Below, piece by piece: positions 3,625 to 43,472 of a stretch of 64,000 bases of DNA. The position numbers and the translations under genes were made by a program. The notes under the pieces are model-generated. The model searched no databases, was not told the origin of the DNA, and saw nothing but the letters and a program-made list of their open reading frames with translations. The stretch comes from Macrocystis pyrifera (taxonomy: Eukaryota > Sar > Phaeophyceae > Laminariales > Laminariaceae). How positions within the stretch are numbered: position 1 is the stretch's first letter; the number at the start of each line of letters is the position of its first letter. The stretch spans positions 17,162,477 to 17,226,476 of the forward strand of contig JASSKH010000003.1 of the NCBI GenBank assembly GCA_031763025.1. The letters run 5' to 3'.

Positions 3625-3904
3625 TGTTATGATACTGCTTTATATGAGGTTGAAAGCCCGGTAATTACCTGGGTTCAGGCTCTGGGAACGTACTTGTAGT
3701 ACTCGGAAGGCATATCTCAAGTGGAAAACCAGGGGTTTTCCTGAGACGCACGAGCTTGGTCTCAGTCTCCGCGTGCACGAAAGGAATATAACTGCTCTTC
3801 TCCTATCTCTAAGCAAGCATCACACGCGAGTACCAACGAGTACCGACTTAATAGGCAAAAACCTGTCCAGGGATACAAAGTGTCCCGCATGCTTGATCTT
3901 AACA
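3625..3904 (+). repeat. 3' LTR of element 1
   Basis: 280 bp, starting TGTTA and ending TAACA (perfect 5-bp inverted ends). It is homologous to 1-265 and, in reverse, to 35439-35720. Confidence 0.85.
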
Positions 3905-4442: not shown

Positions 4443-4446
4443 TCTA

Positions 4447-4736
4447 TGTTATGGTATCCCCTCTCCCCTGTTGCGGCGTTATATTCCCCTCTCCCCTGTT
4501 GCGGCGTTCTGATTTGTAGCAATCGTCCCCTCATCATGCATGGCAGGCGTTGTCGCCTGCTTTTCTGATGAGCGCCTCGCCCTTTCGTTCAGAAGACATC
4601 TGGCGAGGCAAACCGCAACTAATACAAGAGCTTAAACCATCCTCAAGCACCTCGTGTGAGTGACCAGAGCAGAGCCAAAGGCATCAACCTGCTAGCAGTA
4701 GTCGGTCCCTAGGTCCATACTGCCTTACACTTAACA
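4447..4736 (+). repeat. 5' LTR of element 2
   Basis: 290 bp, TGTTA...TAACA. It matches the 3' LTR except for four substitutions and one extra 28-bp tandem copy of a segment containing CCCCTCTCCCCTGTTGCGG near its start, where promoter-containing U3 sequence would be expected. Confidence 0.95.
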
Positions 4737-6704
4737 CTGGCGTCGTCGGCACTCGACCGCGAAGCACTGGAGCGCCTCCGCTCAAAAAAGCCTTCACCAC
4801 CGCTTACGCTCCCCCCGCCCAGCATCCCGGCTTGCCCGTTCACCTACACGCCGTCGGCGTTCGACTTTGCTTTTGTCCTCCTGCCGGTTGCGACCATAGC
4901 CAGGCACACGCAGACCGCTTTCCGTCCAGAAGACGCGAAGGTGGTGTACCCTGCGGGGCGCACGCTGCTGGCCTACATGGACGGCTTCCCCACGGCCACC
5001 TTGAACATGATTCTCACGAATCCTGACGGTTCATTGTCAACGGCGACAATCAACACTGCGTGCGACCTCTTGTTCGCCCTCCGCAAGGCGCACCAGCATT
5101 CCGTGCGCACCCCCACCTGGCCGGACGGCGCTCTCCCGGCCACCGACCCCGCCATGGCCCGCAAACGCGGCCCGCGCGGCGCCGATGCCAGGGACCGGCG
5201 CGACCGCAGCGGTGGCGCCTCCTCCTCTCGAGGCGCCTCCTCGCACAACGGCACATCTTCATCAGGGTCCAAGTTACGGAAATTGGGCAAGGGCCCTCGT
5301 CACCGCCCGGCCCCTCCAGCAGCAGATTCCAACACCTCCGACCTAGAGGTCGCCCAATTGAAAACCCCCAGGCAAGTGGTCCCTTCCCTTCTTGATGTTT
5401 CTTCCGGTGCCGCTCTCCACCAACTATCGCGTGGCGAACCAGCCTCCGACGACCGCGCGCTCCCGTTGTCCTCGACGACAGCGCACGCGCGCCAAGCCAC
5501 CGTCAACGCGATCGTAGCAGAGAGTGACGCGACCCACGATGCTGCCGTAAAGCGTGCTTATGCCAATACCAACGTCCACAAAATCGAACGTATCACGCCT
5601 ATGCCGTTTCACGCAGCTCTCGACAAAACCGACGCGGCCCACCAGTTGACACGTAGTGTTAAACTCGCAGCCTCCGACATTCTAGTACGATGTGACGACA
5701 AATGCTTTGATGGGGTAGACTCCCAGTCATGGGTCCCCGGGTGGGAACTCCCGCTTCGCAAATGCGTCCAAAGAGCCATCACACCCGACAAACCTTCGAC
5801 TTTCGACCTCACCAACACTTTCGATGATTTTTTCCGGCAGGTGAAACGGAGTCTTCTCAAAGGAGCAATCGAGCCGGATGCCTTCAAGCTGCTACTCCGC
5901 CTCATCAGCTCCCACTTCGATCATGGCGACCGCAGTGCCGCCATGGCCAAGCTCCATTCGTTTGGGGTAGCCACCAAGACGCCTTTCGCGGACTATTCTC
6001 GGGCTTTTCGCTTGCTGATAGCGTCCATTACGGACAGTGACCAGGTCTTGGCCCCAGGCGTTGAGGTTGTGCTAGAGGTTGTTCGTAACAGCGTTAGCGA
6101 GCAGTACCCGAGCCTTATGCCGGTTTTGTACCCGGGAGATTTAGCGACTGCGTCAAAGCTTTTTGGGTCTATCGACGACATGTGGTTGGCGTTTAGTGGA
6201 CTTTCTACTAATAAGACTCCCGCCATCAACGGCGAAAAATATTTCACGCTTCCACCCCTCGCGGGTCTTCCTTTGCACTCGCATGCAAGCGGTCGCACCC
6301 AAGGCCGATCGGCCGCGCCGCAGCCTTTTAAAGGCTCATCGGGGTCGTCCCGCAACCCAATCGTGATGAATGTCGCAGCATCAGCTCGTTCGCCTGATCC
6401 ATTTTTGTCTTCCGCGGCCGAAAGGCCTGCTAATTCGACTGTTTGGGACGAGGTATTTCAAGTATCCGAATCGTTCTCAACAAATGACATTCCATTATGG
6501 ACGCCCTTTACCACTCCCGAAGAAAGACGCCAAGTTTTCCGGGAGATCAAGGGCCACTGCCTCAACTGCCATGGCACGGATCATTCATTTAAAACCTGCA
6601 CTGCCCCCTTCACCAACTCTAGCCACTGTCTTAACCCCGAGCTAGGCCGACTTGGTGATAACGGCGAAACCTACCGCCGTTGGCAGCACCGCATGCGGTC
6701 ATAA
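4713..6704 (+). CDS. gag: Gag polyprotein of element 2 (nucleocapsid CCHC knuckle)
   Basis: This is the structural protein that packages retroelement RNA in cytoplasmic particles. One frame is open from 4713, inside the LTR end, to the TAA at 6702-6704. The first in-frame ATG is only at 4977, yet residues before it (for example FDFAFVLLPVATIAR and RPEDAKVVYP) look like normal protein, so the true start is uncertain. A basic Ser/Arg/Gly-rich linker (about 5155-5330) is followed by the conserved capsid-like part (5540-6230) and a zinc knuckle CLNCHGTDHSFKTC (6558-6599), spaced CX2CX4HX4C as in retroviral nucleocapsid proteins. This is the only intact large frame of the element. The same frame resumes after the stop as an Asn/Arg/Gly-rich tail, so the TAA may be either a genuine gag terminus or a lesion. 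Confidence 0.85.
   Translation, partial: VHTALHLTLASSALDREALERLRSKKPSPPLTLPPPSIPACPFTYTPSAFDFAFVLLPVATIARHTQTAFRPEDAKVVYPAGRTLLAYMDGFPTATLNMILTNPDGSLSTATINTACDLLFALRKAHQHSVRTPTWPDGALPATDPAMARKRGPRGADARDRRDRSGGASSSRGASSHNGTSSSGSKLRKLGKGPRHRPAPPAADSNTSDLEVAQLKTPRQVVPSLLDVSSGAALHQLSRGEPASDDRALPLSSTTAHARQATVNAIVAESDATHDAAVKRAYANTNVHKIERITPMPFHAALDKTDAAHQLTRSVKLAASDILVRCDDKCFDGVDSQSWVPGWELPLRKCVQRAITPDKPSTFDLTNTFDDFFRQVKRSLLKGAIEPDAFKLLLRLISSHFDHGDRSAAMAKLHSFGVATKTPFADYSRAFRLLIASITDSDQVLAPGVEVVLEVVRNSVSEQYPSLMPVLYPGDLATASKLFGSIDDMWLAFSGLSTNKTPAINGEKYFTLPPLAGLPLHSHASGRTQGRSAAPQPFKGSSGSSRNPIVMNVAASARSPDPFLSSAAERPANSTVWDEVFQVSESFSTNDIPLWTPFTTPEERRQVFREIKGHCLNCHGTDHSFKTCTAPFTNSSHCLNPELGRLGDNGETYRRWQHRMRS
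4738..4749 (+). promoter_or_regulatory. Primer binding site of element 2
   Basis: TGGCGTCGTCGG begins one base after the LTR. The same 12-mer follows the LTR of element 1, so both elements probably use the same tRNA primer. Confidence 0.65.
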
Positions 6705-8151
6705 CGCCGTCCTACCCTCGTTGGCGGCGAAAACACACGCTCGTCGCCTTCGTCGCTTCGCAACAACAACTCGTCTCGTCGCTACGGCAACAACCGCCGT
6801 AACGACCACGGGCACCCCAACTCTGGTCAGTCTCGTCACGGTAACGCACAACAAGGTAATGTTGGGGGCTCCCAAAGCGATGGCCAATCGGCTACTTCGC
6901 TGACGGTTTTCCAACCCCAACACGGCGTTCCCCCGGGGCCTTCCTCTGGCCCTCAGACCCCGCGTATGCGCTACAGATCTGCTGGTGACTCTAACCCCAA
7001 TGAACGTCAACCAGGGACCTTCCGCTCCAATTGACTGCCCGACGGCGGTGCGTTTGACCTTCCCATCCCGCCGATAGCACTCACGGGAAGCACGTCTGAC
7101 CCAGACACCGACCATCGCCCCCCCGGCGACAGCGTTGCCCCTTCACCGCCGACACCAGGTATGCGCACCACCCCTGGTCTCTGCGAAGACGGCCGCCTCC
7201 CAGCTGCCGTAGGCTCTTCCCCGCCAGCACCAGGAATGCTTGTCGCTCCTGGTTCCGGCGACGACGACGGTATGATTGCCGCCGTAGCCTCCCCACCGCG
7301 AGCACCAGGAGTGCTCGTAGGTACTACACATTCTTCACCGCCGGCACCACGTATGCGTACCGCTCCTGGTCCACGCGAAGACGGTCCTTTGGTTGAGACC
7401 GTAGGTACTACATGTTCACCGCCGGCACCAGGCATGCGTACCGCCCCTGGTGTCTGCGAAGACGGCCGCCTTCCAGCTGCCGTAGGCTCTTCCCCGCCGG
7501 CACCAAACAATGCTTGTCGCTCCTGGTCCTGGCGACGACGACGGTATGATTGCCGCCGTAACCTCCCCACCGCGAGCACCGGGAGTGCTCGGCACTCCTG
7601 GTTCCCGCGTGAACGACACCAGTCGTCATTTTCCGCGTGCATCTTCCCCGACTTCATCTTTTGAGACAACCACCATGTCCAGGAGTGACTCCCAGGATGC
7701 GAGGGTCACCTTGAGGTGTGGGTACGGGAACCCAGGCCCCTCGAGAACAACACGGGCGCTCCGCTCGAGGTCCTCACGCAAGACCAGTCGGAATCTCCCT
7801 CTGCGCACTATTATCGAAGACGATCGGAGTGTAGTCAGCTTTGATTTTCATCCTGACCAGAGCGCAACGGAAGGTTCTTCTTTGAGCCACGGCGTTTCGC
7901 CGGTGGCCACTGAGCTGGTGGAGACCACGTGTCCCCGACAGGACGACACATGTCCCCCACAGGGCTTAAACGCAGCTACGCCCTCGGCGCCAAAATGCGC
8001 CCCTTCTTACCCAGACGAGATACGACGAGGTGATCTGAGAGAACAGACCCCGCGTGCCGCCCGGGCCGTGCTGACAACACCATTTGCTGTGGACGCACTC
8101 CTAATGCCTCCCGCCTACATGGCGGATGTCTCGCCCACCCGGTCAAGGTGA
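6705..8151 (+). pseudogene. Low-complexity linker between gag and NADAR
   Basis: Reading on in the gag frame gives an Arg/Asn/Gly-rich tail (RRYGNNRRNDHGHPNSGQSR), a TGA at about 7032, then a Pro/Ala/Gly-rich repeat region to about 7507. One extra base there (CCAAACAATG against CCAGGAATG in the earlier repeat copy) moves the frame by one. The frame then runs to a TGA at 8150 through Ser/Arg/Thr-rich sequence. No enzyme motif is visible. It probably acts as a disordered tether between gag and pol. Confidence 0.6.
7140..7620 (+). repeat. In-frame tandem repeats in the gag-pol linker
   Basis: Motifs of the form SPPAPGMRTAPG..EDG recur at 7150, 7340 and 7425. The block starting at 7161 is repeated at 7434, an offset of 273 bases (91 codons), so the duplication kept the frame. 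The second copy later gains one base near 7507, which breaks it. Confidence 0.75.
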
Positions 8152-8394: not shown

Positions 8395-8860
8395 TACTGC
8401 ACGCGCAACATCGTGTTCTTCTGGTAGCCCCCCTCATGCTTCTCGCAATGGACGCCTTCCGTTTTACGGTCGAAGGCATCTCTTATTTCTGCGGCGAACA
8501 GTTCTTCGCCGCCGAAAAGAGCCGCCTCTTCGGAGACCACCAGACCCTACAACACATCATGCGCGTGTCTGACCCCCGCCTGCACAAGAAATACGGACGC
8601 GAAGTCCGTAACTTCGATCTCGCCGTGTGGGAACGCGAGCGAGAAAATATCGTGCTTGTCGGCTCTTACGCCAAAACCCAGCCATGCGAACCCACCTCTT
8701 GGACACAGGCGACAAACTTCTCGCGGAAGCTAGCTCTTACGACCTCATATGGGGCATCGGGTACAGGGCTGACACTACTCCTGCACGCCAGCCGCCCCTG
8801 TGGCGCGGCTTAAATTTGCTGGGCAAGACCCTGCAAACCGTGCGACGTCTCTTCCGCGAC
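8395..8860 (+). pseudogene. NADAR (YbiA-like) domain embedded in the retrotransposon
   Basis: NADAR-superfamily proteins act on ADP-ribose-linked substrates; studied members remove ADP-ribose from guanine in DNA or take part in riboflavin metabolism. The family pattern is followed from end to end: NIVFFW and CFSQW (8409-8450), FTVEGISYFCGEQFFAAEK then SRLFGD (8464-8535), KKYGREVRNFDLAVW (8587-8630), NPAMRTHLL (8680-8705), TGDKLLAEAS (8706-8735), DLIWGIG (8742-8762), and LLGKTLQTVRRL (8816-8851). The expected Glu, Lys, Gly-Arg, Trp-Gly-Ile-Gly and final Val-Arg positions are present. The domain is broken by TAG at 8425-8427, a frameshift near 8461 and a second near 8675. It lies between the gag linker and the protease, on the same strand and inside the LTRs. 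It has the GC-rich codon use of the rest of the element, so it is an internal polyprotein domain and not a later insertion. Confidence 0.85.
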
Positions 8861-9979
8861 CGTGCGCCGCCACCGACGCGCCCCCACCAATGGTCTCCTC
8901 AGGACACCTCGCCCTCGAGTAGAGACCGCATCTTCGAAGTCGACCCTTCGACGCGGCAGCAACTGTGCCCAAGTGACACACCTGCAGCCGCCTCCCCGTC
9001 GAGATATCCCGACTCCCACACCACCGTGCCATCAGACCACGACGGCGACGTTCTCGAAGTAATGTCCGCCGCCCGATCCGGTCAGCATCCCCCCTTGCTC
9101 GCGGAGCAAGGGCCTTGTCTTGTTGCTGGTGTCGTAATCATGGACGACTCTTCCTTTACCACCAAAATCAAGATCCACAGTGGCCTAGCTGCTCTGCAGC
9201 TTGGATGTGTCGCCCTTTTGGATACGGGCTCGCCGCAGACTTTCCTTAACACCCGCGCGTTCGATAGCATGAAACGCGTGGGTGCTGCCTCTGCCACTTG
9301 CGAACGACACACCCCTCCCAGGTCATGGGGCGGCTTTGGTAAGTCTCCGCCTCTTGAGACCACGGTTACAGTACGCTTAAGCGTACAATTCTTCCACGGC
9401 GATACACCAACTGCATCACTCGCCGTATGGGCATACGTCGTCCCATCTGAAGCGATGCAACACGACGTGCTACTTGGACGTGACAGCTGGATGCGGTTCC
9501 AGGACCGCTCTTACCGTACATTGGCTCCCTGTTCGATGACTAATCGAGTTCCCGGCGAGCTTACGCTGTCCCTCCCAGGGCTTCAGGGCGCAACAGCGTT
9601 TGTGCCCGACTCTTCGGCTCCTGCTGAAAGCTTCCACCTACTGTATGCGGGCGACACAAGCATCACTTTGTGCCGCGACCATCGTCTTGTCGATGTCGAT
9701 TTGGTTCGCAGTAATGGTGCCCCTGCCCTCGCCGGTTGTTATCTGGTCGACATGCTGCACGCGGCCGCCGATTTTTCTGCGAACGAACAAATTGTAGAAA
9801 ATGGCCGCCAGCTCATCCCATTAGCCGGCATCGCGGATCTAGACCCAGGTGCCTTGCTTGGCACCTCCTCTAGCCCGCTATTACGCGTCCCCCTGGATAC
9901 TTCCTGTTCGACGCTCCGGCTCCTTCTTTGCACCCACGCGACTTCACAGTCCCAGGGCCAGCCCCCCCCCATTCCATGA
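8861..9979 (+). pseudogene. Retropepsin-like aspartic protease region
   Basis: This enzyme would cleave the gag-pol polyprotein as a homodimer. A Ser/Pro-rich stretch (8861-9120) precedes a fold with hydrophobic strands and the active-site motif DTGSPQTF (DTG at 9221-9229). About 80 residues later comes DVLLGRDSWMRF (from 9464), the usual second half (I/L-L-G-R-D) of Ty3-type proteases. The frame is the one holding the C-terminal half of the NADAR domain, so the two were one polyprotein. A Val/Leu-rich tail to about 9890 has no recognised motif. Near 9895 the meaningful frame shifts by one base into the reverse transcriptase frame. Confidence 0.8.
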
Positions 9980-10960
9980 GCACGGACCAGCCCTCACAAC
10001 CAGAGTGCCCGGATCCCTTCGTGCACCATCTACGCGACGAGATAGCCCCGACACGCGAAGAACTCGCGACCCCTTCGGCTCCTCCCGTCAACCAGCTCCC
10101 TTCACCTGCCTTGCTCGAACGGCTGAGCACAGACCAACGCACGAGCTTCCTACAAGTATGGGACCGCTTGCCGTTGCACATGCGCGAAATCGCATTTGTC
10201 TTGCGCGGCCTCGGTTGGACGCCTACCGTCATCACCCAGTTGGGCGATGTTCTTGCTGAGTTCTCCGACGTATTCTCGAAGTCTCCAACCGATTTTGGCT
10301 CCTGCTCTCTGCTCCCCTTCAAGATAACTGTTCCCCCGAACAGCTCTCCTGTGACGTCTCGGCCCTACCGCATCAATCCCCCGACCGCAAAGCAAGCGGA
10401 TGCGGTTCTGGATAAATTCCTCGCCGCCGGCCTAATCCAACACTCCACATCTCCCCTGGCGAGTCCCGTGGTTGTCATCCCGTAGAAATCCGGTGGCATC
10501 CGCATCACGGTGAACTACAAGAAGCTGAACATGCTCAGCATCCTTGGCCAGCTCCCCACCCCGCGCGTTGACGAGGTTCTCGACAAGCTTGGCACCGGTC
10601 GAATCTTCTCACTCTTCGACCTCGTCTCTTCTTTCCATCAGATAACGGTGCATAAGGACACGATCCCTCTCACTGCTTTCTGTACACCCACGCGCCTTTT
10701 CGAGTGGCTGGTTATGCCCCAAGGAAGCAGCGCTGCTCCAGGGTGGTTCGTCAAAGTCATCAACGACGTCATCAAGGACTTGGACCGCGTTGCCGCCTAC
10801 CTCGACGATGTCATCGTTTTCGACGCCGACCCCTCCCTCCACGTCGCTAACATGAAGGAATTGTTCTTGCGATTACGACAGCACAACCTCAAGCTGTCCC
10901 CTTCGAAGGCTACCATCGGCGCCACGGATGAAGATTTCCTCGGTCACACCATCTCTCCCC
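9898..10960 (+). pseudogene. pol: Reverse transcriptase domain of element 2
   Basis: The frame includes the conserved entry region (SRPYRINPPTAKQADAVLDK, 10357-10416; GLIQHSTSPLASPVVVIP, 10429-10482), then NYKKLNML (10513) and FDLVSSFHQI (10615). The MPQGSSAAP block follows at 10714 and the catalytic YLDDVIVF at 10798-10821. These are motifs 1-5 of Ty3-type reverse transcriptases in order. A TAG stop at 10483-10485 falls inside a block that is normally uninterrupted, replacing what is usually a basic residue. After GHTISP (10942-10959) the frame shifts at the C run 10956-10960. Confidence 0.9.
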
Positions 10961-11640
10961 GGCGTCATGCCAAACGCGCAGAAAGTGGAAGCACTGACGA
11001 AACTGCCCATGCCGAACGACCTGAAACAGCTACGCTCCCTTTTGGGCGCACTTTCCTACTACAGGAAATTCCTGCGCGATATGGCCAAGCGCATACGGCC
11101 CATCACTTCCCTTCTGAAACAAGGCGTCAAGTTCGTCTTTACCTCAGAAATGGAAGTCATCGTGCGGAAGCTCCTGGCCGAGTTGACCACGCCCCCGGTC
11201 CTTGTCTATCCCAACTGGGACGCCGTCACGGATAACTCCCGCCCTTTCCTCCTCTACTGCGATGCTAGTGTGGACGGCTTCGGTGCCACCCTCGAACAAG
11301 AACAGGACGATCACACCCTTCGTCCCATCGTGTTCATCAGCCGCGCTATCATCGAGTCTGAACGCCACTGGACTCCACTCGATCTGGAAGCAGGCAGCAT
11401 CGTCTGGGCTATCAAGCGCCTTCGCGGCTACCTTTGGGGCACAAAATTCCGGATTTTTTTCGGACCACAAGGCGCTCGAAAGCCTCGACAAGATCGCAGA
11501 ACATAACCCGCGGGTACAGCGATGGCTGGAATTCCTCACCGCATACAACTACACTCTGGAATACCGCAAAGGCAGTGCCAACGGGAACGCCGACTTCCTG
11601 TCCCGTCTGCCCCTGCCTGCGACGGGGCGCGACCGCGACG
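10961..11640 (+). pseudogene. pol: RT connection and RNase H domain of element 2
   Basis: The first part is the connection (LKQLRSLLGALSYYRKFL, from 11020). It is followed by RNase H, which degrades the RNA strand of the hybrid: LLYCDASVDGFGATL (from 11251), FISRAIIESERHWTPLDLEA (from 11332), IVWAIKRLRGYLWG (from 11401). A one-base gain in the T7 run 11454-11460 moves the frame, after which SDHKALESLDK (11460) and YTLEYRKGSANGNADFLSRL (11550) complete the domain with its usual end motif N-A-D-x-L-S-R. Confidence 0.88.
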
Positions 11641-12660
11641 GCCCCAGCAGTCTCACTCCGTCCGACGAAGAGACGCGTTTTTCTCATCCGCTCTCACGGC
11701 ATACTCCAGGGTGGACCCTCCGCCGTGCGTGTCGGTTTGGGTGGGCTGGCGCTCTCCGACCCGAGCTTAGGCTTGGGGGGGCTCCCGCTCTCCCCACACG
11801 ATTTCCGCGATTTTCGCCAACACGGGCCCCGAATGAGGATTGACGACCTAAATGCTCCAACTGGAGAATTCGTTGCCCGTGCCCCCTCTTACGTCACTTC
11901 GCGAGGTCCCAACTGGGCCCTTCCTACGAACACAGGTACCAGCGATTTTCTCGTCGGTTCTGTCTTCGCAGTCCCTCTTGCACCTCTGCCCGCTTCAACC
12001 GACGGCACGGACCCCGGCCGACGCGCCACTTCCTCCGAGCCTTCTCCATCACCCACCGATGGCGACACACCGCACTCTAGCCCTACAGCGGTCCCCGTCT
12101 CATCCACGGTCGCCGACGACAAAGCAGCGTGGGACACCCTCTCTCCTGCTCGACCTGTCCAGCAGGACTCAGCCGAGCACCCAACGGATTCAGGTCCTCA
12201 GGAACCCTCTGTTGTGTCTCATCCAGCCTCGCGTGTCGCCCGGACCAACCGTGATCAAGTCTCGGTTGTGACCGTGGCTCCGCCTCTGCTGCCTTCATCT
12301 TCACAGACGGCCCTGCCGTCCCTTCCCCCGTCGGAGCTCATTTCGTCTCGGACCCGCCGACGCCAAGCTGACGCTGCTGGCAAGCCTGCGACCACCGTGG
12401 ACTATGGTTTCACTCGCTCGCATTCTACTCGGCCCACCGTCCCACGACCAGCCCCCAAGGCGCGCAAGCGGCGCCCGCCTCGGACTACGCCCCCTTCAGA
12501 GGATTCTCCCCGGCCCGTCATCGACCCAGTCCCGACAGTGCCGATTCGACCCACCACCGATGCGGTCACACCTGCCCCGCCCTTGCTTGGCACCCTCCCT
12601 CCGGAACCTCCCGGGCGTGCCAGCGCCACAGCTGCCCTTCCCGAGATACCCTCACCGGCA
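11641..12660 (+). pseudogene. Long disordered linker between RNase H and integrase
   Basis: After a frameshift near 11700 a single open frame continues to 13587. Its first 300 or so residues are rich in Pro, Ser, Thr and Ala and show no domain. A basic patch PKARKRRPP at 12454-12480 could serve as a nuclear localisation signal. In most Ty3 elements RNase H and integrase are separated by a much shorter stretch. Confidence 0.6.
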
Positions 12661-13520
12661 GAGGCCGAGTTCATCGACTCTGTCGAGCAATACACACATT
12701 CCGATTGGGCGCGTGAGCAACGCGCTGAGCCGGTTTGTGACGCCGCCATTCGGTATCTTCTCCTAGGCAGCCCCTCCGTCCTCCCCGACGATTTCTTTCT
12801 ACACTTGGCGCCTCACAAACGCCCCCCGTTGTCCGAAGTGCGCTCCTTAGCCGAAAAAGGACGACTTTACACAGACGACGACGGTGTTCTCCTGCTCGTG
12901 CGGAAGTTGACGCCCCCCGCTCTGACTCGTCCCGACAAGCCTGGCGGACGTGCCGCCCGTCTCTTAGACGACGAGCCCACGAGAATCTACGTTCCGCTGC
13001 TTATGCGTCCGTGGATTATGCAAGCCTGCCATGCTAGCGCCTCCTGTCACCTTGGTGTCGCTCGAACGCTCTCAATGCTCGAACGTTTCTATTGGTGGAT
13101 TGGCATCAGCATCTGCACGCGGTGGTGGATCCGTCGTTGCCTCAAATGCCAGGCGCGCAAGACTTCCAGACAAACGGTACGTTGGCCCATCCTCTCCCTT
13201 CCGTTGCCATCCGGCCCTGGTGTCACGGTGAGCGTTGGCTACTTCGGTCCCCTTCCCGTCACACCTCGGGGCAACTGCTACATTCTACTCTTCACGGATA
13301 GGTTCAGCCGGCGCGCAGATATGTACGCCGTCTCGGCTGCGGAGTTCACGGCTGAAGGCACGGCCGACATCTTAGTGAATAAGTACATACCTCTTTGGGG
13401 ATGTCCGGTCAGCCTTCTCTCCGACAATGCACTTCACTTCTGCTCCAAGCTGTCCCGTGCCGTGTACAAACGTCTGGGAATGCGCAAAATCGCCACAAGC
13501 GCCTACCATCCCGTGCCGTG
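12661..13520 (+). pseudogene. pol: Integrase zinc-binding and core domains of element 2
   Basis: Integrase inserts the cDNA into chromosomal DNA. The HHCC domain is clear: CHASASCH (from 13027) then, 29 residues after the second His, CLKC at 13138-13149. The core follows: GYFGPLPVTPRGN (from 13237), LLFTDRFSRRADMYAV (13288) and SDNALHFCSKL (Asp at 13423-13425), then KIATSAYHP (13489-13515). Two catalytic positions are lost. Ty3-type cores normally have Asp in the V-D-Y/F-F-G-P-L block, but here the codon is GGC, Gly (13237-13239). The region with the catalytic Glu after SAYHP is missing, because the sequence runs into an inverted segment. The frame stops at 13587 in inverted sequence. Confidence 0.88.
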
Positions 13521-13740
13521 TGGGCAGAAATTTTTCCGAGCCACCAAAGATGATCTTGACCCTTGTACCAAAAGTGAGCGCCGATAGGCAAGGTGGTGCC
13601 GCTGAACCGGCGAGTCCACGTTTGCTGGTCGACGTAGCTGTATCCAGGAGGCAGAAAACGGGCGCCCTTGTCGCGGGCGAGCTCGAGTTGAGCGGCACCC
13701 ACGCACATACGGCGGTACGCCCTATTTGCCTGTCGAAGTT
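13510..13740 (-). other. Inverted segment inside the integrase tail
   Basis: On the minus strand this stretch reads AYRRMCVGAAQLELARDKG, then FLPPGYSYVDQQTW and GAHFWYKGQDHLWWLGKIS. This is the same order as the plus-strand tail of element 1 (LYRRMR..., GAHFW..., DGLWWL). The plus strand resumes the tail after 13741 with LDDPGPVKLAL. The breakpoints carry short inverted matches: 13489-13509 reads ATCGCCACAAGCGCC, while 13744-13763 contains GGCGCTTGTGGCGA. Flipping the segment would restore the element 1 order, but with integrase sequence between SAYHP and the tail still missing. Confidence 0.85.
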
Positions 13741-15203: not shown

Positions 15204-15465
15204 TGTTATGGTATCCCCTCTCCCCTGTTGCGGCGTTCTGATTTGTAGCAATCGTCCCCTCATCATGCATGGCAGGCGTTGTCGCCTGCTTTTCTGATGA
15301 GCGCCTCGCCCCTTCGTTCAGAAGACATCTGGCGAGGCAAACCGCAACTAATACAAGAGCTTAAACTATCCTCAAGCACCTCGTGTGAGTGACCAGAGCA
15401 GAGCCAAAGGCATCAACCTGCTAGCAATAGTCGGTCCCTAGGTCCATACAGCCTTACACTTAACA
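15204..15465 (+). repeat. 3' LTR of element 2
   Basis: 262 bp, TGTTA...TAACA, followed by the target duplication TCTA. It lacks the 28-bp duplication found in the 5' LTR. Confidence 0.95.
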
Positions 15466-15469
15466 TCTA

Positions 15470-39339: not shown

Positions 39340-40230
39340 TCATTTGTTGCTTGCCTTAGTCATTTGACCATTGACCACGCATCCCTTTCGAGACGGAGCA
39401 CCGTTCCTACTCCTAATAGAGACACCTCCAACAATTGGGCGCTCATTACGTTGTTTCCATAAATTACGTAGAAACTTTTTGCTAATCTTATCCCCTTCCT
39501 GTTTGGCCTCCTGTGGCCACCATCTATCTCCTAGGATAGCGATCGTTTTCTCGCTGCTATTCATTGCATCAAACTCCTCCGTGTCACATTCGTCTATTTT
39601 CCTCATCTCTTCTAACACATCCCGTTCCTCTTTGTATATTTCACATTCTCCTACTATGTGAGTTCTACTCTCTATTGCTTTGCCACACGAGCACATCTGT
39701 GCGTCTAAAGCCTCCTCTTCCTGGCTACTGGTGTACCTCTTTCTTCTTTCTGGCAGGTCCAGGTCCCCTACACGAAAGCGCAGTTTCAGCGTTTTCGCAA
39801 AGTCCATTGGGCCATGCAAATACGTTTTCATTCCTATTCCTTCCCTCAATCCCCCGTATATCTCTATGTGTTTTTTTCCGATTCCACCTTGTTTCTTAGC
39901 TCTAGCCTTTCCCTTCTTTCTATCCTTTCTTCTACTTCTGCCTTGTACCTCCCAAACTTCCCGGCGGACATCATCTCTACTTGGTTTCCCCCTAGATCTT
40001 TCCATACTTTCTCAACTACGCCATCCCACCTTATTCCAGCTCGCCCTTTTGATACTTTCTCCCATACAGCTCTATCAACTTTGGCTGGCAACCTCTTTTT
40101 TGGCATGTTCCTTACTTTATATTGCCAGTTCAACTTTCTCATGTCTCTATTTGTCTTGAGTGGGCGCATTCCCAGTTCTGCTCTTAATACTGTACTACTA
40201 GTCGTACTTGAGGTTCTTAGGATTTTTTTT
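39340..40230 (-). pseudogene. LINE C-terminal region with zinc-finger-like motif
   Basis: The frame LRAELGMRPLKTNRDMRKLN, then WQYKVRNMPKKRLPAKVDRA, continues to an A7 run near 39872 where it shifts. The next frame contains LKLRFRVGDLDLPERRKRY and a Cys-His cluster CSCGKAIESRTHIVGEC (about 39690-39640), of the type found at the end of many LINE polyproteins. The stop TGA at 39340-39342 is followed at once by GTACG and the C run. Confidence 0.8.
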
Positions 40231-41741
40231 AGCTGCTGTCATTTGTACTGTTTCCAACTGTTTTACGAGTTTCGCGTTCCCTTCCCATACTTCTCCTGCA
40301 TATTCTAGCTTTGGTACTATCACATTTATCAAGATACATCTCTTGATCCTAGTGTCAAGGTTCGGGTCTGTTAGGATCGCATCCATCTTGCCTACTTGTG
40401 CCTTACCCTTTCCTATTACTTTTGCTATATGTGTATCCCACGAGCAGTCTTTTGAGATCTCTACGCCAAGGTATGTATACTGGTCTACGATCGGCAATTC
40501 ATCTTCTCCCCACTTCCAACTGAAATTTACCGGGTTTACCTTATCTTCGTTGCAAACAACTACTGCGCATTTCTTGACGTTCGCCGTCACCGTCCATTTC
40601 CTGGTGTATTCTAGCGCCTTGTCTATTTGTTTTTGCAATCCTTCGGGTGTTTCTGATATCCCCACGAAGTCATCCGCAAACATCAATCCCGACATCGTAT
40701 CTTCCCCTACCGTGACTCCCTGCCTTGCCCCCTCGACTGCTACTCTCAGGTCGTTAATATATATCTTGAGTAAGTTAGGTGACAACGTACATCCCTGCGC
40801 AACACCTTATAAAATATCAACATACTTCGATATTTCCCCGTCCAGCATCACAGCACTTCTCGCACATTCCGTCATCTTTTTCATCATTCTCCACATCTTT
40901 CCTCTGATTCCTATTTCCCACAGTTTTTTCCACAATCCATTTCTCCATACTGTGTCGTAGGCTTTCTGCACATCTAGAAAGAAACAGTACGTTGTTAGTC
41001 CCGCGTCTTTCCTACCTTGAATAATCTTACCTAAGGTGTACACATGGTCTACGCAGCTACGGTTTGGCCTAAACCCTGCTTGTCCTTCGCTTATTTTGTC
41101 TTCCTTCTCCATCATCGTTCCCATTATATCGTTCAAAATCTTACAAAATGTTTTGCCTACTGTGCTTAGTAGCGTTATCCCTCTATAGTTCCCCGGGTCA
41201 GCCTTATCTCCTTTCTTGAATAAATTTACTACTACTCTCTTCTCTCCACCTCCCAGGTGCGTACTCGTTTTTCCATATCCAGTTATACAGCATAACCATC
41301 ATGGTAAGCATTCCTTCTCCCCCGTACTTCATAAATTCATTCACTATTCGGTCTGCCCCTGTTGCCTTTCTATTCTTAAGTTTAGCTACACACTTCTTTA
41401 CCTCTTCCCTTGTGAACTCTCTCTGTAACCCTCCCGAACCACTGTCTTCCCTTTCTGATGTATCTGCGTTCGCCTCTGCCCACGCGTTGATTTCCTTCTC
41501 GAATTCTGCATCGAACGTTTCGTTGGCTGTGGGTGTTCCTAGCTTTCGGTAATGCTCTACTAGTACCTCCCTTTTCCCCTTCGAACTACTAACTATTTTA
41601 CCGTTCTGTGCTCTTAGAGTAGCTATTCCCGTGTCTGCCTCTCCTGCTTGTTTGCCAAGTATCCCTTTTATCCCTACCCACATCTGTTTCATCCCGCCCT
41701 CAAAGTCTTCATTTGTTTTATTTACTACGTCATATCCCTTT
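40215..41741 (-). pseudogene. LINE reverse transcriptase
   Basis: The frame includes EEVKKCVAKLKNRKATGADR (about 41405-41346) and, after a shift near 41240, VVVNLFKKGDKADPGNYRGI. Then come GQAGFRPNRSCVDHV, CFFLDVQKAYDTV, GVAQGCTLSP (40806-40777) and the catalytic FADD at 40669-40680, followed by YLGVEISKD. These are the LINE-type RT blocks in order. TAA at 40807-40809 stands where a Gln usually precedes G-V-x-Q-G. The domain ends with the thumb-like region, where an A8 run near 40228 shifts the frame. Confidence 0.9.
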
Positions 41742-42755
41742 CTTCTTCTTCTCTACCATCTCTTTTACTTTCTTTCTAGCTATAGCATACTCCTCCCACC
41801 CTGTCGAAGTTTTACTCGATGTATACCTTGCGTGTGCCTTTCTCCTTGCTCTTATAGCCTCTTTCACTTCTTCATCCCACCATTTTACCGCTCTGTTGCA
41901 TACTATCAACTTCTTCCCTATTACTTTACTTGCTGTGGTCTTGACCAACTGCTCCCATCCTTCTATTATCCTAGCTCCTGCATCATCCCTTTCTATATCG
42001 TTCCTTGTTGTACCTATTCTTTCCAACAGCTCGGAAAATTTCTCTGCATTTTTGGCCATCTCTTCTTGGAACTCTTCCCGTTTCTCTTTTACTTCTAGTT
42101 TATCTATTCTCCATCGATACAATTTCCTACCTCTTCTACGTTTGATAACTATCGTATGTTGACTGTCTGTCCATATTAGACAGTGATCCGTAGTTCCTAT
42201 GTCCGCTGCGCATAAATGTAGTTCCGTTTCCTTACCACTTCCATTTTCTACTACTATAAAGTCAAGGATAGAGCTTTCTCCCTTTTGTATGCACTGTCTA
42301 GTCCATTCCGGTTCTGCCTTTTTTTACTCTGTCGTTCAACGTTTTCATCTCGTTGTGCTTGAGGAACTTCAACATCTCTTCCCCATTCTTATTCTTTGTT
42401 ACTTCCCCATATTGTCCAATGTTCTCATTCAGTTTGCTTGCCCTCCCAATTCTTGAGTTAAAATCTCCCACTAGTACTACTTCTCCTTGCCTCTTATACT
42501 TCTGTACATCTGCTGCTACTTCTCCGAACTTCCTCTGTATATCTTTTATCGTATTCTTCGACTCTGGGGGTATGTATATGTTTCCTAAGAAGTAGTCTTT
42601 CGCTCCCCGCTCCCCTGGAATCTTAATCCATTTGCTTTCGTCGAATTTAGTGTCTTTGATCACCTCTGTTATGTCACACAGGTATTCTTTGACAAGGAAC
42701 CCCACACCCCCCCCCCCCTATTCTTGCAATTCTGTCCCTTCCTCTTTTTCCCTAT
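41742..42755 (-). pseudogene. LINE endonuclease remainder and connector
   Basis: After the TAG and a frameshift in the C12 run, the frame gives GFLVKEYLCDITEVI, LGNIYIPP and EVVLVGDFNSRIG, the G-D-F-N block of AP-type endonucleases that nick target DNA. A shift at the A7 run near 42318 leads to SSILDFIVVENG and GTTDHCLIW, which holds the catalytic D-H pair near the domain end. A lysine- and glutamate-rich helical connector follows to 41742, with VKWWDEEVKEAIRARRKAH at about 41890-41834. Confidence 0.8.
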
Positions 42756-43472
42756 CTATGCGTACTCTCCAACTTTGGATCCTATCTCCCCTCCTTCTTT
42801 CTCCCACGACTCTTGAATTCCCACTATGTCTAGGTCGCGCTTACTTACTTGTTCGGCAATTTCGATTCTTTTGCGCTCTTCCGTGGCGAAGCCACATACG
42901 TTCCACGATCCTATTCTCTGCCTCCTTTTCGTTTCACTATCCGCTCTAGTCTTCCCCTTTCTTTCTCCGTTGTCGCCACGAGTATTTCTGTTATCTCTTC
43001 TTTGAGCATTATTTTCGTTTCCGTTCCTGTTCTTGTCTGCTTGTTCTGCGCCCCTATGTTTCTCCCCCATTCCCTTTGAGCCACTTGCTGTTTCCTGCCT
43101 CTCCCTACCTTCGTTCACCCTAGGGCTACGTCTTAGTTTCGTTATTCCATTAGCTATACATACTCTCCATCCTAGTATTCTAACCCATGCCGACACTTTT
43201 TCTGTCTCTATCCTCTGCCACTCCATGCTCGCTTTCAGCGTCAGAGTGACTCGAAAGTGTTCTCCCTCTCGTTCTACGTTTCCTATTGCAAAGCAATACA
43301 GTCCTACTTCGTCGCACTTCTTCTTGAACTCAATCCTTGTCATGTCGCTAGGAACCCCAAATATCAGCACTACTAGTAATTTACCCTGCCAATCTTTCTT
43401 TCTCCACCCACCCTTCCTCACCGTCTTTCTCCTAATCTCTTCCGAGAATATCTCCAGCTTGTTTTTGTTCAT
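42756..43472 (-). pseudogene. LINE N-terminus: RRM-like segment and start of endonuclease
   Basis: A 238-codon frame from ATG. Residues 30-115 (LLVVLIFGVPSDMTRIEF, later VSAWVRILGWRVCIANG) have the strand-helix spacing of an RRM-like RNA-binding fold, as in ORF1 proteins of many LINEs. A long charged, Asn/Arg-rich linker follows. The last 50 residues begin the endonuclease: RIGSWNVCGFATEERK and LDIVGIQESW, where the Asn and Glu match metal-binding positions of AP endonucleases. RNA-binding and endonuclease parts share one frame. It ends at TAG 42756-42758 within the endonuclease. Confidence 0.75.

Follow-up and report, generated by a model that had tools for sequence, protein, structure and literature searches.

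The stretch of DNA analysed here, 64,000 nucleotides of the giant kelp Macrocystis pyrifera (hereafter the window), contains a damaged copy of a brown-algal family of Ty3-type LTR retrotransposons whose Pol starts with a YbiA-type NADAR domain. NADAR is a maintained part of Pol in this family, and it has diverged under purifying selection.

The element in the window

The element lies on the plus strand between two copies of the target site duplication TCTA (4443..4446 and 15466..15469). Its 5' LTR (4447..4736) has TG...CA ends and a tandem duplication of 28 nt near its start; the 3' LTR covers positions 15204..15465. Between the two LTRs 4 of 252 aligned bases are mismatched, which makes the insertion fairly young, despite breaks in its frames at many points. 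The LTR pair encloses 10.5 kb that contain gag, NADAR, protease, reverse transcriptase (RT), RNase H and integrase, in that order. The characters of the Ty3 type are present: paired TG...CA LTRs, a short target duplication and the order protease–RT–RNase H–integrase, where the protease is recognised by its motifs and by weak Pfam matches. A previous reading of the window, made from the sequence only, had described a Ty3-type element with matching LTRs and a TCTA duplication, and indeed TCTA is found on both outer sides of the LTR pair.

The gag ORF (4941..6704) encodes 587 residues in a frame that is open from 4743, and it has no Pfam match; toward its end it contains a CX2CX4HX4C knuckle, CLNCHGTDHSFKTC. 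Tandem repeats of about 75–90 bp, Pro-rich when read as protein, lie between gag and NADAR (7142..7591). The N-terminal half of NADAR (8409..8672, Pfam profile) is read in the frame of ORF 8436-8813 and the C-terminal half (8666..8857, Pfam profile) in that of ORF 8627-9979, which also encodes the retropepsin-like protease (9155..9637). Pfam identifies RT at 10510..10953 (RVT_1, E 6.8e-23) and RNase H at 10928..11506 (RT_RNaseH_2, E 2e-23). The integrase, in ORF 11434-13587, matches Pfam at 12994..13512, with the H2C2 zinc domain at E 1.6e-12 and the rve core at E 2.4e-6, the latter below the cut-off.

The window also holds traces of what may be other mobile elements. A direct repeat (1-223 and 3637-3859, 90% identical, 3.6 kb apart) flanks ORF 1859-2713, which resembles by eye the C-terminal region of an integrase and has no Pfam match; the repeat and this ORF are perhaps part of another, neighbouring LTR element. 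The remains of a LINE-like element lie on the minus strand at 39340-43472, with an RVT_1 match slightly below the cut-off (E 2.4e-6, 40198-40785) and a weak endonuclease match (E 0.0031, 42756-43472).

Identification of the NADAR domain and of the protease

The cut-off of the Pfam family NADAR (PF08719) is 35.1 bits, and each half of the window domain exceeds it separately: in a Pfam search ORF 8436-8813 matches positions 30-101 of the profile (56.6 bits, E 4.7e-15) and ORF 8627-9979 matches positions 102-162 (60.6 bits, E 2.8e-16). The two halves abut on the profile and are divided by a single frame change near 8670. The sequence-only reading had placed a NADAR domain between gag and the protease, with its C-terminal half in the protease frame, in a copy that is broken. 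All of this is confirmed: both halves are above the cut-off, the order is seen in the window, ORF 8627-9979 spans the C-terminal half of NADAR and the protease, and the domain is split over two frames. Its extent, given as 8395-8860, is corrected to about 8409-8857. The split is damage to the window copy, because four copies chosen by their RT have NADAR and RT in one frame. A programmed frameshift within NADAR as a trait of the family was considered and rejected, since related copies read the domain in a single frame.

Past NADAR, ORF 8627-9979 continues into a protease-like stretch (DTGSPQTF ... LLGRDSW). In addition to the motifs DTGS and LLGRD, weak Pfam matches to Asp_protease_2 are seen in seven of seven aligned members (best E 0.0082), and to Peptidase_A2B in five of the seven (best E 0.0066). 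A profile search of PDB with the element protease gave nothing at E 1. The predicted structure of the database relative P0004 has a mean pLDDT of 34.2, which is too low for reading its fold.

Copies in the genome of M. pyrifera

The NADAR profile search of the M. pyrifera genome returned 1264 candidates, of which 150 were scored, and all 150 are above the cut-off. A first sample of copies, chosen by NADAR, consists of 20 regions of up to 10 kb and 10 regions of 3.7 kb. A protease follows NADAR in 29 of these 30 regions, the exception (L038) being NADAR alone, and in 16 of the 20 long regions NADAR is preceded by gag-like sequence. The domain is of a type called T1 in 21 of the 30 regions, with RT 2.0-2.5 kb downstream in 20 of them; in the other nine it is of a type called T2, which is 52% identical to T1.

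The second sample was chosen by RT: 150 of 2588 candidates were scored and the 42 highest-ranked, which are 84-99% identical to the window RT and include the window itself, were analysed. A NADAR of the window type lies 1977-2074 bp upstream, on the same strand, in at least 28 of the 42 (27 of 41 without the window); the NADAR set behind this count is made of 100 listed matches, from 150 scored of 907 candidates. No NADAR was found near the other 14 when the remaining listed NADAR matches (150 scored of 907) were checked by eye; in these copies the domain may be absent, worn, or outside the scored 150 of 907. Seen from NADAR, at least 34 matches have RT 1955-2084 bp downstream, 66 of the 150 RT matches being compared. 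In four of the 28 copies NADAR and RT are in phase and have the same open-frame length (1243-2349 aa), which indicates that they belong to a single uninterrupted frame. Uninterrupted relatives, which the sequence-only reading had called for, therefore exist, and the domain occupies the same place in related copies whether these are chosen by NADAR (29/30) or by RT (at least 28/42). The hypothesis of a one-off capture is rejected by the RT-chosen copies that bear the domain.

The copies are unevenly distributed. The contig C200 (22 Mb) contains 26 of the 150 scored NADAR matches, compared to 6.1 expected from its length (binomial p 5e-10, a value which assumes that copies are independent and which rests on the best 150 of 1264 candidates by score). 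In a passage on the sex-determining region of the giant kelp, few genes are ascribed to the second half of scaffold 2 (PMC10498591), which may or may not be C200.

Conserved residues and selection

The structure of the NADAR from Phytophthora nicotianae shows 13 residues that contact ADP-ribose (PMC11543638). In PDB, the entry that an element NADAR matches best is 8bau (E 5.3e-17), which is taken as this protein because the 13 published contact residues are in register at +2. According to the alignment, 11 of the 13 contacts are identical in the window NADAR, while Y84 is replaced by F and D86 by L. In P. nicotianae numbering, the counterparts of E43 and K50 are in the N-terminal half of the window domain and that of E125 is in the C-terminal half. 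E125 is the catalytic glutamate in the last strand of the YbiA family; this residue is D in the BC4488 type and H in the phage type.

The eleven contact residues and F84 are kept in 28 of 32 fetched copies (23 T1, 9 T2). E43 and E125 are kept in 32 of 32 and K50 in 31 of 32, all three being intact in the window. The ribose contact D86 is replaced by L, C, E, Y or R in element copies; E occurs in nine copies and is what both of the checked T2 copies carry. Some database relatives are worn: P0004 lacks R79, D130 and W133, P0021 has lost K50 and K75, and P0008 has lost K75 and the aromatic residue at Y84.

Between types, the dN/dS of NADAR is 0.17-0.20 (N-terminal half) and 0.16-0.20 (C-terminal half) for the window against three T1 copies, 0.18-0.19 for the window against two T2 copies (C-terminal half, the N-terminal half being saturated) and 0.13-0.16 for T1 against two T2 copies, compared to 0.08-0.09 for RT. 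As dS is near saturation, these between-type values are rough and their direction alone is safe. Consistently, pN is lower than pS between subfamilies, the pair window-T2 included (Fisher p from 1.4e-5 to 2.5e-13). The sequence constraint that the sequence-only reading had made a test of its proposal is thus observed.

Within types, the dN/dS of NADAR is 0.42 in T1, where 5 of 23 copies contain a stop, and 0.46 in T2, where none of nine does. The corresponding values are 0.40 for T1 RT, 0.30 for T1 integrase, 0.54 and 0.70 for the protease and 1.10 for T2 integrase, in copies that were selected by NADAR score, which biases the comparison toward NADAR. Counting the variants common to two or more T1 copies, the values are 0.38 for NADAR (11 synonymous, 14 not), 0.20 for RT and 0.11 for integrase. 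So NADAR is under constraint, though a looser one than that on RT and T1 integrase.

Relatives and origin of the domain

Thirteen database relatives were found at E 0.001, some of which may stem from M. pyrifera itself. Seven of the 13 continue into a protease-like stretch, whose active-site motif is changed in P0002 and P0007. A single predicted protein of Ectocarpus sp. CCAP 1310/34, P0008, combines NADAR with RT. In the search with the NADAR profile, 7156 of 8000 scored proteins reached E 1e-10 or better, and brown-algal and Nannocystis proteins are among the best named matches of the best 120 of these 7156.

The NADAR tree has 49 rows, including 27 database rows hand-picked from the best 120 of 7156; P0003, P0011, P0012 and P0013 were excluded as long-branched. 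It contains four clades, each supported at 100/99 or 100/100: T1 with P0091, the window type with the Ectocarpus proteins P0008 and P0021 (100/99), T2, and short algal proteins. The sequence-only reading had raised the question of a single clade of element NADARs. This is retained for the window type and T1, which can be held together (AU p 0.69, the held tree being slightly better), but T2 stands apart in the free tree, where it joins three short database proteins (95/89). A single clade of T1, the window-type elements and the five short algal proteins is likewise not rejected (AU p 0.197).

The position of T2 bears on the number of captures. The NADAR of the window type and T1, and that of T2, could have been captured independently from different donors, as suggested by the place of T2 in the free tree and by the cost of adding it to the clade of the window type and T1 (16.2 log units). 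The AU test nevertheless keeps the single clade (p 0.094), and the protease diverges alike, with 58% identity between window and T1 and 55% between window and T2; we regard separate captures as a rather unlikely scenario, though one to be kept in mind. A viral donor was also considered and rejected: 69 loci of viral contigs are 42-56% identical to the element domain, compared to up to 63% for bacterial or other database proteins.

The nearest non-element relatives of the element NADAR are short bacterial and algal proteins. The short brown-algal NADAR proteins P0017, P0020, P0027, P0037 and P0087 form a clade (100/100) and are a possible host counterpart of the element domain. All except P0027 have a Cys/His-rich N-terminus. 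These proteins and bacterial NADARs such as P0026 from Nannocystis contain the same domain, 58-62% identical to T1; judging from their predicted length (173-252 aa) they are outside Pol, unlike the element NADAR.

A branch without reverse transcriptase

RT and RNase H are seen in none of the nine T2-type regions, while integrase is seen in all nine. Of six further copies picked by a T2-like profile span, five have no RT and one has it. Thus, 14 of 15 copies with a T2-like span lack RT, the last five being typed by span alone. These 14 (L020, L026-L032, L037, L045-L049) make up the RT-less branch, in which protease and integrase are kept; L026 and L027 also keep gag-like sequence. A NADAR profile span starting at position 1 was dropped as a mark of RT-less copies, because RT was present in one copy out of six with this span.

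In the long ORFs of the T2 copies L026, L027 and L028, Pfam finds NADAR and integrase, and no RT. A tblastn search with RT gave nothing significant in the fetched T2 flanks, which do not reach the 5' end, so that an upstream ORF is possible; the sole trace is a match of 15 residues (E 0.02) in L040, outside the element. Among 411 candidates, no long polyprotein with a T2-type NADAR was found at 1e-6. An alignment of four T2 copies over about 10 kb shows 92-97% identity in the long stretches; five of the six pairs also have short stretches at 86-90%. It thus seems that the branch proliferated once RT had been lost, RT being presumably supplied in trans.

Possible function of the element NADAR

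NADARs hydrolyse guanine-ADP-ribose in DNA and RNA (PMC11543638, PMC11125620, PMC11833690). Every NADAR/YbiA protein assayed in PMC11125620 hydrolysed guanine-ADP-ribose, and the same article calls the physiological roles of eukaryotic NADARs unclear.

Our best guess for the role of the domain is that it removes ADP-ribose from the RNA or cDNA of the element. As a part of Pol, NADAR would enter the virus-like particle, where the adjoining protease would free it or leave it attached. It would then strip ADP-ribose from the guanines of packaged RNA or new cDNA, where a host enzyme or stray ADP-ribosylation may have placed it, and reverse transcription would be unblocked. We know of no enzyme assay of any element NADAR. 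We give the complete reading, a family with NADAR in Pol, contact residues kept and purifying selection, whose domain would remove ADP-ribose from RNA or cDNA in the particle, slightly less than an even chance. The active RNA-mark eraser of an orchid Gypsy element (PMC9289625) speaks in its favour. Several observations count against it: the outcome of the DarT and PARP searches given below, the replaced contact D86, the contact residues lost from some database relatives, the mild constraint within types, the 14 RT-chosen copies for which the listed matches show no NADAR, and the action of E. coli YbiA on riboflavin intermediates.

We infer a possible counter-defence by the element NADAR. The DarT- or PARP-like host opponent that the sequence-only reading had proposed is unsupported so far: a six-frame search of the genome, which genes with introns readily escape, gave no match for DarT (the control matched in 1 of 14 named genomes) and one partial match for PARP (51 of 199 profile positions, E 3e-6), where the control, with 0 of 14, is uninformative. 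The wider idea that the host marks the RNA or cDNA of retroelements with ADP-ribose, in an undescribed algal defence, and that the elements carry a particle-borne eraser of guanine-ADP-ribose, is a doubtful one at this stage. On this reading, the RT-less branch, which multiplied with NADAR, protease and integrase, would hint that the benefit of the eraser goes to the particle or genome bearing it, and not to the polymerase with which it is usually fused.

The domain might instead act on small molecules, such as soluble ADP-ribose derivatives or damaged nucleotides, for instance to silence a host signal based on NAD or to rid the particle of damaged nucleotides. The same contact residues would serve, E. 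coli YbiA cleaves the N-glycosidic bonds of riboflavin intermediates (PMC11543638), and viral NADARs may favour soluble ADP-ribose derivatives (PMC9503650). However, the fusion to Pol positions the domain beside RNA and cDNA, the assays of PMC11125620 mentioned above all point to guanine-ADP-ribose, and macromolecular targets are favoured for the NADARs of eukaryotic RNA-virus polyproteins (PMC9503650); we consider a small-molecule substrate unlikely. That NADAR is a module which binds ADP-ribose or nucleic acid, for docking to modified host chromatin, RNA packaging or Pol folding, with catalysis unimportant, appears quite improbable. It would agree with the replacement of the contact D86 and with the chromatin-reader domains of Ectocarpus Gypsy lineages (PMC12477816), but the three residues that matter for hydrolysis are kept in 31 of 32 copies, T2 included, a conservation for which binding alone gives no obvious need.

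It is very improbable that the captured domain is a passenger carried without use. Many copies are broken, the within-type dN/dS is moderate, and contact residues are lost in some database relatives, as a passenger would allow; against this stand the dN/dS of 0.13-0.20 between types, the persistence of NADAR in types that are 52% identical and in the RT-less branch, and its presence in Ectocarpus.

Eukaryotic NADARs gain here a concrete and testable setting, with many copies, constraint and one expected substrate, the RNA or cDNA of the element. If the activity is present, it would indicate a host ADP-ribosyltransferase that acts on algal retroelements.

Comparison with known systems

The pairing of NADAR with Pol is already published for Ectocarpus and is not new as a kind. 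In this alga, NADAR is located at the N-terminus of Pol in one Gypsy lineage, e.g., Gypsy-12_Ec32, and it is also found in ORF1 of Tx1 LINEs from the Pacific oyster; a role in the processing of RNA intermediates was suggested in 2025 (PMC12477816). The statement of the sequence-only reading that it was aware of no characterised case is thus overtaken. Among the literature matches listed, no other report of NADAR-bearing retroelements was found, and the available passages of PMC12477816 make no mention of RT-less NADAR elements, residue analysis, selection tests or enzyme assays. New here are a second host (the giant kelp), the constraint, the conservation of residues and the RT-less branch of 14 copies. 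The Ectocarpus lineage is like the window element in that NADAR opens Pol, and the window NADAR groups with the Ectocarpus proteins P0008 and P0021; by this architecture and these two proteins, the lineage may be the same. M. pyrifera differs from it by several subfamilies, one of them without RT.

Other NADARs are found outside Pol, unlike the element domain. This is the case of the P. nicotianae protein, a guanine-ADP-ribose hydrolase of the YbiA subfamily (PMC11543638). Ectocarpus Esi0017_0056 is a stress-induced protein of 391 aa with a DUF1768/NADAR domain at residues 132-291, whose expression in Arabidopsis leads to better stress tolerance (PMC7922944); it may be a host gene or derive from an element of this kind. 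In DarT-NADAR toxin-antitoxin modules NADAR undoes the ADP-ribosylation of guanine; the window element differs from these modules, as there is no DarT among its Pfam domains.

Orchid Ty3/Gypsy elements carry, in an additional ORF, an AlkB-type m6A RNA demethylase that is active in vitro, and whose uptake is proposed to reflect host control of the elements (PMC9289625). There too a Gypsy element has acquired an eraser of RNA marks, although the enzyme is another one and its ORF is separate. If the element NADAR is active, it would be a second kind of nucleic-acid-mark eraser in Ty3 elements, beside the orchid AlkB.
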